Assembly: GCA_027069135.1 (NCBI GenBank)
Contig: JALXFE010000248.1
Location: forward strand, 1-59,363
Length of the DNA stretch: 59,363 nucleotides
Origin: Thermoanaerobaculia bacterium
GTDB lineage: Bacteria; Acidobacteriota; Thermoanaerobaculia; Multivoradales; JAHZIX01
Direction of reading: 5' to 3'
The notes under the pieces are model-generated. The model had not been told where the DNA came from. It saw only the letters and a program-made list of their open reading frames with translations, and did not search any database. Of this stretch, positions 34,910-53,518 are shown piece by piece. Numbering within the stretch: position 1 is the first letter of the stretch; the number at the start of each line of letters is the position of its first letter. Position numbers and translations under genes: made by a program.

Positions 34910-35860
34910 ATGAAGCACTTACCTAGGTATCTACCGCCCGGCACCTTCCTTGCCGAAATCACCCAACGCTGCCTCCTGGGTTTCCATCTGCTCAGACCCT
35001 CCAAGAGGCTCAATCTCCTCGTCGCGGGCGTCGTCGCCAGGGCCCAGGAGAAATACCCCGTCGAGGTCGTCGGCCTGGCCGTGCCCTCCAATCACTATCA
35101 CCTGATTGCCACCGGTACGAGCCAGGAGGATCTCTCCAAGTTCATGAACTTCGTCTCCTCAAACGTCGCCCGGGAAGCGGGAAAGATCCATGGTTGGGAG
35201 GGCAAGCTGTGGGCTGGACGCTACGATTGCACGCCCATCACCGATGAGGAGGAAATCCAGGTCAAACGGCTCAAATACCTGCTCAGCCAAGGCTGCAAAG
35301 AGGGGCTCGTCTCGAGTCCAACTCTGTGGCCCGGGGTTCACTGCGCCAAAGCCCTCATGAACGGCACCGGGATTCCCGGTGTCTGGGTCAATCGCACCGC
35401 CCTTTATAAGGCGCGGCTCAAGAAGAAGGGGCGGGAGAAGGTCCGGCCCATCGACTTTGAAGAAGATCTCCTCCTCAAGTTCTCGCCCCTACCGTGCTGG
35501 GCCCATCTGGCGCCGGAGGACTACCAACAGAGAATCCGGGATCTGGTTCGGGAGATCGAAGAAGAAACCGCCGCTCGACACCGGGAGGCGGGGACCCGTC
35601 CCCTGGGGCGCCGTGCCGTGCTCAAGAAGGATCCCCACTACCGACCCAAAGCCCTCGAGACCTCTCCGGCGCCCCGGGTCCATGCCGCCACCCGGGAGGC
35701 CCGCAAGAGGTTCATGGATGCCCTGCGCATCTTTCTCAAGGCCTACCGGGCGGCTTCGGCGCGGCTTCGAGGCGGTGAGCCTTTAGCAGAGTTCCCCGGA
35801 GGGTGTTTTCCGCCGCACGGGCCATTTGTCCCCTTCGGCGACAGCCTGCACCCGGTGTAA
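34910..35860 (+). CDS. REP-associated tyrosine transposase-like protein (RAYT, Y1_Tnp/HUH)
   Basis: A 316-residue protein of the IS200/RAYT Y1 transposase superfamily. The metal-binding HUH motif is H62-Y-H64 in SNHYHLIATG, and the helix RLKYLLSQGCKEGLV carries the likely nucleophile Y123, matching the Y..NP..AGLV segment of RAYTs. Family members cut single-stranded DNA at hairpins with a GTAG or similar foot. The C-terminal ~130 residues (basic, Arg-rich) extend beyond the usual ~170-residue core. No terminal inverted repeats flank the gene, as expected for domesticated RAYTs. AGGAG is only one base before ATG 34910, so the true start may be slightly downstream. Confidence 0.8.
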   Translation: MKHLPRYLPPGTFLAEITQRCLLGFHLLRPSKRLNLLVAGVVARAQEKYPVEVVGLAVPSNHYHLIATGTSQEDLSKFMNFVSSNVAREAGKIHGWEGKLWAGRYDCTPITDEEEIQVKRLKYLLSQGCKEGLVSSPTLWPGVHCAKALMNGTGIPGVWVNRTALYKARLKKKGREKVRPIDFEEDLLLKFSPLPCWAHLAPEDYQQRIRDLVREIEEETAARHREAGTRPLGRRAVLKKDPHYRPKALETSPAPRVHAATREARKRFMDALRIFLKAYRAASARLRGGEPLAEFPGGCFPPHGPFVPFGDSLHPV

Positions 35861-50181: not shown

Positions 50182-50327
50182 TCAGTGGATCGAGGCCGGG
50201 GAGCTGCCGGCGCTACGGCGATAGGAACCGAGAGTCATCCCAAACCGGCGGCGAAAGGCGTTGGTCAGGTGACTCTGATCGCAGAAGCCGCAGGAGAGGG
50301 CGAGGTCGACCCTTTTCTCTTCCGGAG
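50182..50327 (-). pseudogene. remnant of an AraC-family regulator (C-terminal helix-turn-helix only)
   Basis: On the minus strand this stretch reads VDLALSCGFCDQSHLTNAFR then RRFGMTLGSYRR and stops at TGA 50182. That is the second helix-turn-helix of an AraC/XylS regulator (A..CGF.D.SHL...FRR..G..P..YR). Upstream coding sequence is replaced by the GC-rich repeat array at 50311, and there is no start codon or N-terminal domain. The gene is therefore truncated, most likely by repeat insertion or a rearrangement at that point. Confidence 0.75.
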
Positions 50328-50947
50328 CCCGGCCTACCGGGCATGAATGCCCGCCCTGGACACAAGCCCGGCTGAAGCCGGCCGACGCTCCGCAGGCAAT
50401 CTCGGATCCCCGGCCGCCTTCAGGCGGGCTCGAAACCAGCCCGGGGCTTCAGCCCCGGGAGGGGTGTTGCTTCCCTTCTCTTCCAGAACCCGGCCTCCCG
50501 GGCATGAATGCCCGGGCTGGACACAAGCCCGGCTGAAGCCGGCCGACGCACCCGAGGCTTCCTTGAAGTCCCCGGCCGCCTTCAGGCGGCCTCGAAACCA
50601 GCCCGGGGCTTCAGCCCCGGGGGGGATGTTGCTTCCCTTCTCTTCCAGAGCCCGCTTCCCGGGCATGAATGCCCGCCCTGGACACAAGCCCGGCTAAAGC
50701 CGGCCGACGCACCCGAGGCTTCCTTGAAGTCCCCGGCCGCCTTCAGGCGGCCTCGAAACCAGCCCGGGGCTTTGAGCCCCGGGGGGAGGGGGGGTGCTTC
50801 CCTTCTCTTCCGGAGCCCGCTTCCCGGGCATGAATGCCCGGGCTGGACACAAGCCCGGCTAAAGCCGGCCGACGCTCCGCAGGCAATCTCGGGTCCCCGG
50901 CCGCCTTCAGGCGGCCTCGAAACCAGCCCGGGGCTTCGAGCCCCGGG
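50311..50947. repeat. tandem array of four ~162-bp multi-hairpin repeat units
   Basis: Units: 50311-50472, 50473-50634, 50635-50799 and 50800-50947 (last one ends at its final hairpin). Each contains in order four palindromes: CCCGGGCATgaATGCCCGGG-type, AGCCCGGCTgaAGCCGGC, GCCGCCTTCAGGCGGC and CCCGGGGCTtcAGCCCCGGG. A 23-24-base inner segment comes in two forms: units 1 and 4 share one, units 2 and 3 the other. Loop bases vary (TTC, TTTG, TTCG) while stems stay paired. Frames open through the array are artefacts of this composition. Confidence 0.9.
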
Positions 50948-50999
50948 CGGTGGGATGACCTCGGATCTCGTGGAGGAGAAGCCGAAGGCTTACCACTCA

Positions 51000-53048
51000 T
51001 TAGTTGCCGCCCGCCTTCGGAGCTTCCGCTTCCCGGTCCATCGCCTCCAACTCTTCGAGGGCCGCGGCGACCACCTCGGGCTTTGAAGAAACCTTGACAC
51101 CGTGGAGTAGATACCGACGGGCCTGCTCTCGGCGATCCAGCTTCAAGGCCGTTCGGGCCACCGCCACATAGGTGCTGGCGGCGTCCGGATCGAGCTCCAG
51201 GGATCGTAGGTAAGCTTCCTGGGCGGCCTCGTGGTCGCCCAGCAGCGCCAAGGCATTCCCTTTGTGGTACCAACCCTGAGGCAGGTTGTCTCGCCGGGAA
51301 AGGCTCTCCTTCAGATGCTCTAAGGCCTCTCGGTACCGTCCCTCACCGAGAAATAGGTACCCCAGATTGAACCAGCCTTCGGGCCGCTCCGGGCGCATTG
51401 AGATAGAGCGCTCCAGAAGGGCGATAGCATCTTCCCTCTGTCCCGCCTGAGCTCTCGACAGCCCCTTCCACTCCAAGCCCACGGCACTCTGCGGCTGTAC
51501 CGTCAGGAGCATCGCCAGGGCCCGATCAAGACCTTCCCTCTGGTGCTTCTGGAGACGTCCTCGCACCAGATCCAGGTACGGCTCCGGGGCTTGGACCTTA
51601 AGCTTTAGCAGAAGCTTCTCCAAGGTATCGAGGGAGCTGGATCCGCCAGCCCGGGCGACGGAAACCGCACGGTAGAGGTCGGCGACATCACCGGTAGGCG
51701 CCTGCGCCAGAGGAAGAATCTCCACGTCTACAATCATCGGATCGGTCGCCGGCAGGGGTGCTACCAACTCGGTTCCTATGGGCTGGCGGCGGATCCGATG
51801 GTCGGTGACGGTGACCTCGATGACGTCCGAGGACCGTCGCCGAGGCATATGGCAGGCGACGCAATCCTCCGCAGCCACAGCCCGCAGCGATTCCGGGAGG
51901 CTCGCCTCCGCCGTCATCGCATCCAGTTGGCAATCGTCCGGCTCGTGGCAGCTCTGACAGGCTTGTTTGTAATGCCCGACGCGCTCCTCCACGGCGACCT
52001 TGCGATGGGGATCGTGGCAGGTCATGCAGCTCATGGCCCCTTGGCTCTCTTGGTAGCAACGGCTTTGGCGCAGTCGGTAGGGATGGTGGTTGATCTCGAA
52101 GCGATCCTCCCGGGCTTCCCCTTCCACCTCGACGTCCACCGGAACCATGTACTCGTTCAAGGCCTCCCCCGGGCGAAAGGAGTAATCGCTGCGACCGAAA
52201 CGGCGGACTCCGAAGAGCGCCACCGTCGGCTGCAGGTGGCATTCGTAGCAAATATCGTCGCGCCGCTGCGGTGAGAGCTTCGCCGGATTGACGATGGACC
52301 GGACCAGCCGTGGGAAATCCACCGGCTCGCTCATCCCGACCCGCACGTGTTCGGCCCCGGGGCCGTGGCAGCGCTGGCAGCCGATGCCTTCCGGGAGATC
52401 TCGGGGGTAATTCTGGGAAGACCCGTAGAGGTCACTACCGACAGGAACCTCCGGATAGGCGTTGTGGCAGAACATGCACTCCCGGCGCACCCGGCGCAGG
52501 ACCCCTTGATGGTCAGCCCCCTCGAACCCTGGCGCCATCCGCCAGCTATCGCTCTCGGCGTACCAGGCCAGCGGTAGCTGGTAGAGCTCCCCCCCGGGGG
52601 TGCTGTAAAGGTAGGTTCGGGAACGGACACCGGAGCCCAGGATCCAATCCACTCGCTTCTCAAAGACGTTGATGGGCGAGCCGGCGGCGTCTTCCTCCCA
52701 ACGGCTAAAGAGATAGCCCTCGCCGTCCCGGCGCATCTCATAATGACGTCCGGAGGCTTCATGAAAGTAGTGGTTGTCCTCAAAATCTTCGATCACTCGG
52801 TCGGCTCGGGGCCGAAAGAACGACTTCGCCATGCTCACCGATTGATAGCTCTCGAAGAGATCCACGTGGCATAGCCGGCATGCTCGGTCTTCGACGTAGC
52901 CGGCGGCAGCGCCGGTGGTTTCGTGAAGGCCGAAGCGGACCAGAGGATCCTCCACCGGAGCCTCCTGCGCCTTCCGGTCGGCGCCCCCTAAGCTCGCCAG
53001 GAGCACCGACCAGGCCAGGTACGCAAATCTCGTCCGCCTCTTGGACAT
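51000..53048 (-). CDS. heptaheme c-type cytochrome with C-terminal TPR repeats
   Basis: A ~682-residue exported protein. ATG 53048 (GGAGG 10 bases upstream) is slightly preferred to ATG 53075. After the signal segment there are seven CxxCH heme-binding motifs: CRLCH, CMFCH, CQRCH, CYECH, CMTCH, CQSCH and CVACH, the last followed by MPRRR. The C-terminal ~230 residues are TPRs (GWFNLGYLFLGEGRYREALE, GWYHKGNALALLGDHEAAQE). Multiheme-TPR proteins of this kind are common in Acidobacteria and Planctomycetes; the electron acceptor is unknown. The gene is bracketed by copies of the multi-hairpin repeat in opposite orientations. Confidence 0.9.
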   Translation of the reverse strand: MSKRRTRFAYLAWSVLLASLGGADRKAQEAPVEDPLVRFGLHETTGAAAGYVEDRACRLCHVDLFESYQSVSMAKSFFRPRADRVIEDFEDNHYFHEASGRHYEMRRDGEGYLFSRWEEDAAGSPINVFEKRVDWILGSGVRSRTYLYSTPGGELYQLPLAWYAESDSWRMAPGFEGADHQGVLRRVRRECMFCHNAYPEVPVGSDLYGSSQNYPRDLPEGIGCQRCHGPGAEHVRVGMSEPVDFPRLVRSIVNPAKLSPQRRDDICYECHLQPTVALFGVRRFGRSDYSFRPGEALNEYMVPVDVEVEGEAREDRFEINHHPYRLRQSRCYQESQGAMSCMTCHDPHRKVAVEERVGHYKQACQSCHEPDDCQLDAMTAEASLPESLRAVAAEDCVACHMPRRRSSDVIEVTVTDHRIRRQPIGTELVAPLPATDPMIVDVEILPLAQAPTGDVADLYRAVSVARAGGSSSLDTLEKLLLKLKVQAPEPYLDLVRGRLQKHQREGLDRALAMLLTVQPQSAVGLEWKGLSRAQAGQREDAIALLERSISMRPERPEGWFNLGYLFLGEGRYREALEHLKESLSRRDNLPQGWYHKGNALALLGDHEAAQEAYLRSLELDPDAASTYVAVARTALKLDRREQARRYLLHGVKVSSKPEVVAAALEELEAMDREAEAPKAGGN

Positions 53049-53518
53049 CCCCGACTCGCCTCCACTCTTACGCATCTGCGTTCACCCCTTCCCGGAAGGT
53101 CTAGAGTCTACCCCGCCCGGGCCGGGAACCGATCCGTCCCTTCCCTAGCGAGACGCTCGCGGCCAGGGCCTCTGTGAACCGATCGGCCGGCTTCAGCCGG
53201 CCTTGTTTCCTAGACCGGGCATTCATGCCCGGTAGGCCGCGCCCCGGAAGAGAATAACGAACCATTTCCAACGGTTGCCAAACCTCCGGGACCTCCTCCA
53301 CCCGATACCAACTCATCGCCAACACCCGGGGCTCAAGACCCGGGCGGGTGCCGAGCCCCCTTGAGGAGAAAGAGTGCTGATATGTTTCGGCCGTGGATTC
53401 CGCCTACTTAGGTAGGAGAAGCCTTCCAGATCCACCTCGGTCACGGTTCCATGAGCCTCCCCTTCCCTGCCACGCCCAGGAATTCGAGACCCCGAGCTTG
53501 CCGAAGGAGACTGAAACG
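53049..53518. other. intergenic region with repeat fragments
   Basis: This 470-base divergent gap contains the inverted repeat half-unit at 53183-53254 and one more degenerate palindrome, CCCGGGGCTCaagACCCGGG, at about 53325-53345. The last ~150 bases before 53519 should hold the promoter of the metalloprotease gene, but I find no convincing hexamers. Confidence 0.5.
53183..53254 (-). repeat. inverted, diverged half-unit of the multi-hairpin repeat
   Basis: Reverse complement of the first ~72 bases of an array unit: GGCCGGCTTCAGCCGGCC, then CCGGGCATTCATGCCCGG, ending ccggaagagaa. Several substitutions keep the stems paired (GGCC for GGGC). Confidence 0.8.

Follow-up and report, generated by a model that had tools for sequence, protein, structure and literature searches.

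We analyzed a 59,363-nucleotide stretch of DNA (the window) from a Thermoanaerobaculia bacterium of the phylum Acidobacteriota (contig JALXFE010000248.1 of assembly GCA_027069135.1), which contains a four-unit tandem array of palindromic sequence (Table 1). The array is very probably a tandem cluster of double-hairpin repetitive extragenic palindromes (REPs), similar to the BIME-2 (bacterial interspersed mosaic element) or REPIN (REP doublet forming hairpins) clusters of other bacteria, with a TnpA transposase of TnpA_Y1 subclass 1.2 as its cognate enzyme. The reference anatomy for these repeats, and for the REPtron loci that carry their transposase genes, is given in PMC3733652, PMC6006769, and PMC8266576.

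Each array unit is an inverted pair of two-hairpin modules

The original prediction for this DNA had described a four-unit tandem array with four different hairpins per unit. A repeat search showed that the tandem array is real, with four in-register copies of 137 nt at start-to-start spacings of 161, 161, and 165, and Tandem Repeats Finder delimited a repeat at 50315 to 50947 with a period of 161, 3.9 copies, and 89% matches. Each unit contains the hairpins h1 (CCCGGGCATGAATGCCCGGG), h2 (GCCCGGCTGAAGCCGGCC), h3 (GGCCGCCTTCAGGCGGCC), and h4 (CCCGGGGCTTCAGCCCCGGG), and the 131-nt stretch of unit 2 with all four of them folded 4.9 standard deviations better than dinucleotide shuffles. The count of four hairpins thus stands, but they are not independent, as h1-h2 is ∼77% the reverse complement of h3-h4. 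The monomer is a module of ∼48 bp that, read in its own direction, consists of a short hairpin, ∼8 nt, the tag NNAG, and a long hairpin with the tag at its foot. The centers of the two hairpins were 29 nt apart in 50 of 54 modules. Most copies in this genome have CCAG as their tag, and GTAG is the most frequent tag in relatives. Since h1-h2 corresponds to an inverted h3-h4, one array unit comprises two monomers with their tags facing inward, plus a linker.

The units are 90 to 95% identical along their whole length, and their variable sites follow several patterns. Columns 80 to 97 show the A-B-B-A order that had been predicted for the inner segment, column 65 is AABB, and columns 45 and 46 are ABAB. 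Because these patterns are incompatible with a single duplication history, the units must have exchanged sequence. Tandemly repeated palindromes are also a property of integron attC and CRISPR-like arrays, but the attC core GTTRRRY occurs zero times on either strand of the array, and the uniform identity of the units leaves no unique spacers; we give an origin of this kind practically no credence.

Modules are dispersed through the genome, alone and in arrays of varied period

In the genome (7.17 Mb in 626 contigs), 79 BLAST-level matches to the array were found, and a model built from sequence only (R1) gave at least 112 matches. About 100 or more of these are clear modules, in 45 clusters, 22 single. 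The census rests on model searches scoring 150 first-look candidates and gives a minimum number of modules. Neighboring modules are mostly inverted (31 "−+" and 21 "+−" neighbors versus 12 on the same strand), and the arrays that they form contain from two to about five pairs. The periods of the inverted-pair arrays differ from site to site: 112 bp on C20, ∼144 bp on C158, 161 to 165 bp in the window and on C272, 188 bp on C588, and ∼217 bp on C249 and C578. One array in direct orientation, on C447, has a period of 142 bp. The flanks of solo modules are unrelated on both sides, and similarity ends at the two-hairpin unit.

Such solo copies and arrays of varied period are the trace expected from dispersal of a ∼48-bp module followed by local amplification. 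Amplification had been proposed for the window array, and the separate multicopy clusters with their different periods, together with the mixed variant patterns within the array, bear this out. We note that at the right edge of the array (50951 to 50985) lies a sequence like GACCTCGGATCTCGnnGAGGAG, which recurs adjoining modules on C578, C38, and C72; some copies may thus be part of a longer element.

Compensated substitutions in the module stems

We measured covariation within the genome on 85 distinct copies collected by sequence alone. In the short hairpin, columns 9 and 16 pair as CG in 47 copies and as GC in 38, with no broken pair; in the long hairpin, columns 67 and 73 pair as AU (39 copies), CG (35), UA (4), or GC (3), and two pairs are broken. 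The covariation score was 0.193, compared with 0.055 for shuffled alignments and no more than 0.033 when partners were slid. Occasional G-U pairs are found in the module stems. The same trend was seen across genomes, where 15 modules of TnpA relatives showed two-sided changes in 11 of 14 pairs. There, 97.6% of cells were paired, a figure that is raised because those modules were recognized by their hairpins, which leaves the variety of pair types unaffected.

These data support conservation of a folded strand, as had been proposed, with a covariation signal that is indistinguishable between DNA and RNA. The accompanying claim, that loops change and stems are preserved, is correct for h2 and h4 of this array; across the genome, by contrast, the loop core hardly varies and it is the stems that differ, by compensated substitutions. 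Two of the checks proposed at the outset, a genome-wide copy search and stem covariance, were clearly positive, and the outcome named as refuting, an absence of further copies and of compensatory changes, is contradicted. Overall, the observation underlying the original prediction is confirmed and its interpretation partly supported.

A TnpA gene lies within an array of the same modules

Contig C158 carries an array of these modules, and within it a gene for a 133-amino-acid HUH/Y1 TnpA (P0001) sits between a short and a long hairpin. It is the only gene copy of this type in the genome. P0001 scored 69 bits against the IS200/IS605 model NF033573 (cutoff, 55), and only 20.9 bits against the model for REP-associated tyrosine transposases (RAYTs), NF047646 (cutoff, 80), which places it outside class 2. 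Its HUH motif is DHVH and its tyrosine lies in YVERQKEHH, and both align with their counterparts in the TnpA of ISHp608. The pattern Y---Q--HH is present in all 37 aligned sequences, P0001 included; most relatives also have a common C-terminal part, and P0001 is shorter. With Y---Q--HH and the HUH core, the protein carries the signature of TnpA_Y1 subclass 1.2 (PMC6006769).

The locus has the organization of a REPtron, with one HUH/Y1 TnpA gene flanked by its own repeats. It does not have that of an IS200/IS605 insertion sequence (IS), as the gene is single copy here and the flanking modules are inverted in most relatives rather than being left- and right-end hairpins on one strand.

Two other Y1 loci were considered as candidates and rejected. 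The window itself encodes a 316-amino-acid Y1_Tnp protein (34910 to 35857, plus strand) with a weak likeness to the RAYT model (40 bits; cutoff, 80), and no matching palindromes lie alongside it. A Y1 fragment on C74 (L049, 2294 to 2620) is apparently an incomplete gene and has no inverted flank; its hairpins have other stems and the same loop as the modules (GGCGACTTCAGTCGCC, CCCTCGCCTTCAGGCGAGGG). The genome has about 15 further Y1_Tnp matches, mostly weak and in long open frames.

Relatives of TnpA adjoin modules of the same architecture

We compiled 40 loci of TnpA relatives from named genome records, several of them labeled Acidobacteria, and from related genomes. Inverted repeats flanked the gene (E ≤ 1e-5) in 28 of the 40, versus 9 of 300 control positions, and a full module (short hairpin, spacer, NNAG, and long hairpin) lay within 400 bp of the gene at 22 of the 40 loci, versus 0.5% of shuffled flanks. 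The stems differ among these loci while the architecture stays. From 15 of the relatives' modules we built a covariance model (R2) that contains no sequence of the present genome; for its alignment, we manually deleted one unpaired spacer base from several rows so that the columns stayed in register, and we excluded modules whose long hairpin measured 19 nt. R2 detected the C158 array as well as six of the eight modules of the window array; membership of the latter in this family thus has independent support.

In genome G007, the TnpA gene lies between two identical 49-nt inverted modules, and similar modules occur elsewhere as short inverted pairs. Both G007 and G028 have their own stem version, found mostly as ∼100-bp inverted pairs, including copies beside their own TnpA, in the same arrangement as one unit of the window array. 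The G007 locus could be read as an IS200-like IS whose two ends are modules, with the pairs as internal deletions of this autonomous element, comparable to miniature inverted-repeat transposable elements. In the present genome, however, the gene is single copy and is enclosed by the short and long hairpins of one module, single modules occur alone, and some other relatives hold their modules in the opposite orientation. We consider this derivation rather unlikely; it overlaps with the explanation by REP-like modules and a cognate TnpA, and differs from it mainly over origin.

A further possibility is that the modules form classical REP-BIMEs of a RAYT-type (class 2) TnpA_REP, and that the IS200-like TnpA merely inserted into the C158 array. 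The overall anatomy is that of a BIME, the genome has the additional Y1 genes described above (one of them in the window) with weak likeness to REP-associated transposases, and ISs are reported to insert into REPs (PMC1525189, PMC8450116). Against this, TnpA relatives elsewhere are flanked by modules with the same architecture and other stems, module presence follows the IS200-like TnpA (see below), and, of the further Y1 genes, a subset of which was examined, that of the window is without such palindromes; we consider this reading highly improbable.

Two further loci differ in layout. An Ignavibacteriae TnpA relative (L077, 4527 to 5569) has tandem short hairpins followed by CTGTAG with no evident long hairpin, possibly a one-hairpin form of the module. 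Six direct tandem modules with steps of ∼170 to 205 bp occur in a two-contig genome (G177:C1:226187-227120), which would suit study of array dynamics.

Module presence tracks TnpA across genomes

Among 59 related genomes, modules were detected in 14 of 14 with TnpA, versus 4 of 45 without. After removal of the genomes that had supplied modules to the model, the counts were 6 of 6 versus 4 of 45 (P = 1.2e-5). In a phylum-wide sample of 148 genomes besides this one, modules were found in 26 of the 30 genomes with TnpA and in 11 of the 118 without (P = 2.5e-16), and all 15 families having TnpA also have modules. The few same-order genomes common to both samples all lack TnpA and modules.

These distributions also bear on whether the array is a multihairpin structured RNA gene or a leader/terminator array, acting in termination or mRNA protection, to which the transposase is linked only incidentally. 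Covarying stems with occasional G-U pairs would suit such an RNA, as would the location of the array between the end of one gene and the start of another on the same strand. However, searches at Rfam gathering thresholds gave no match in the window, and copies occur solo, paired, or arrayed, in either orientation and with unrelated flanks. Moreover, the present stem version is absent from a same-genus genome, and the modules flank a TnpA gene and track its presence across genomes. An RNA gene as the primary identity is therefore very unlikely, and a host role may exist secondary to mobility.

Comparison with known repeat-transposase systems

In view of these results, the earlier statement that the array matches no named repeat was too strong, as its anatomy is that of REPs, BIMEs, and REPINs with a REPtron-like locus. 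The closest parallels are the BIME-2 and REP-BIME elements with the TnpA_REP (RAYT) REPtrons of enterobacteria and Pseudomonas (PMC8266576, PMC3733652). Like these, the modules are small, dispersed, tagged palindromes that form inverted pairs, often in tandem together with flanking DNA; a HUH/Y1 TnpA gene lies among its own repeats, and stem variants coexist. Dispersed copies, inverted tandem pairs, and a tag at the hairpin foot are thus all present, but the monomer has two hairpins at fixed spacing, the tag is CCAG, and the IS200-like TnpA falls far below the RAYT model.

The transposase itself agrees with subclass 1.2 (PMC6006769) in Y---Q--HH, in its IS200-like core, and in being a single gene in this genome. 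According to that study, members of this subclass generally show neither typical terminal secondary structures nor IS properties, whereas here palindromic modules adjoin the gene in most relatives, in another phylum, and P0001 is shorter C terminally. The full modules at 22 and inverted flanks at 28 of the 40 loci depart from the published lack of terminal structures.

Two other groups include Acidobacteria. TnpA_Y1 class 3, described from Acidobacteria and Planctomycetes with "atypical secondary structures," a CnGA foot, and the motif Y----Q, is similar in its REP-like high copy number (∼600 in Solibacter usitatus) and in resembling both an IS and a REPtron (PMC6006769); it differs in having Y----Q and CnGA in place of Y---Q--HH and NNAG. 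TIRtrons, in which inverted repeats, sometimes double palindromes and sometimes present in further genomic copies, enclose Y1 transposases (TIRYTs), include some from Acidobacteria (PMC3733652). Most TIRYTs are, however, placed in subclass 2.1 by PMC6006769, with the terminal inverted repeat motif GGGGWSAS and a C-terminal helix-turn-helix (HTH).

Genomic neighborhood of the window array

The array lies between two minus-strand genes, one for a tetratricopeptide repeat (TPR)/CXXCH protein and the other GH114-like. Both module sites of the window, the array and the further copies listed in Table 1, are outside homology-supported genes; intergenic position was checked for these window sites. An AraC-type HTH C-terminal remnant abuts the left edge of the array, which points to interruption of a gene by an insertion or a rearrangement at this edge. 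The TPR gene (51003 to 53075, minus strand) encodes a 691-amino-acid protein with TPR repeats and doubled CXXCH/cytochrome c matches. G001 and G002 each encode two close homologues of it; the homologues in G001 to G003 are only ∼50% identical and belong to a multicopy family. A tRNA/tmRNA search found none in the window.

Table 1. Module array, further modules, and adjoining gene remnant in the window
Feature	Coordinates	Strand	Evidence or remark
AraC-type HTH C-terminal remnant (neighbor outside the repeat)	50185–50310	−	PF00165, 3.8e-9; stops at left edge of array
Four-unit tandem array; unit, inverted pair of two-hairpin modules plus linker	50311–50947		
Unit 1, module 1 (h1-h2)	50332–50386	−	R1 match
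Unit 1, module 2 (h3-h4)	50409–50462	+	R1 and R2 matches
Unit 2, module 1	50493–50547	−	R1 and R2 matches
Unit 2, module 2	50571–50624	+	R1 and R2 matches
Unit 3, module 1	50655–50708	−	R1 match
Unit 3, module 2	50732–50785	+	R1 and R2 matches
Unit 4, module 1	50820–50873	−	R1 and R2 matches
Unit 4, module 2	50896–50949	+	R1 and R2 matches
Solo module	53183–53237	+	BLAST-level match, hairpins, and sequence-only model
Partial module, mostly long hairpin	53324–53358	−	R1, E = 4e-4

Discussion

By analogy with the Escherichia coli TnpA_REP and its GTAG-tagged REPs, we propose that the modules are mobilized by TnpA, which would use hairpin and tag to recognize the module in its folded, single-stranded form and would cleave and rejoin it, so that copies spread. 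Tandem amplification may follow by unequal recombination or replication slippage; flanking DNA would be carried along, so that the period would vary from site to site. The mixed A-B-B-A, AABB, and ABAB patterns of the window array could then result from gene conversion among its units.

Several points weigh against this explanation. TnpA activity, binding, and cleavage are assumed from related systems, and this genome has the tag CCAG instead of GTAG. Even the closest genomes have diverged too far for an empty site to be recognized, so individual insertions are presumed; the same-genus genome G001, with none of the present stem version, has its own TnpA and modules. A clear inverted flank at E ≤ 1e-5 is missing from 12 of the 40 relatives, among them both Dyadobacter loci. 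Across the phylum, 4 of the 30 TnpA-bearing genomes show no module at the threshold used, and the 11 of 118 genomes with modules and no detected TnpA may reflect loss, fragmentation, or missed genes. Finally, the P values for co-occurrence ignore shared ancestry.

On balance, we lean toward the view that subclass 1.2 represents a separate REPtron lineage, independent of RAYTs, that recognizes a bipartite, two-hairpin REP. If this is true, REP-type elements have two or more separate origins among the HUH/Y1 transposases, and the second hairpin would represent a novel element of recognition. We found no earlier report of repeats of subclass 1.2 in the open-license PMC literature, although one may exist elsewhere. 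These transposases were previously without a described DNA partner, and the window array leads to a likely one, a double-hairpin REP whose stems change between genomes while its architecture is kept. Coevolution of TnpA and REP would thereby become testable outside the RAYTs, with natural TnpA/substrate pairs that have altered stems and tags. The proposed system would also explain why genomes of this phylum contain conspicuous palindromic arrays without a matching Rfam family.
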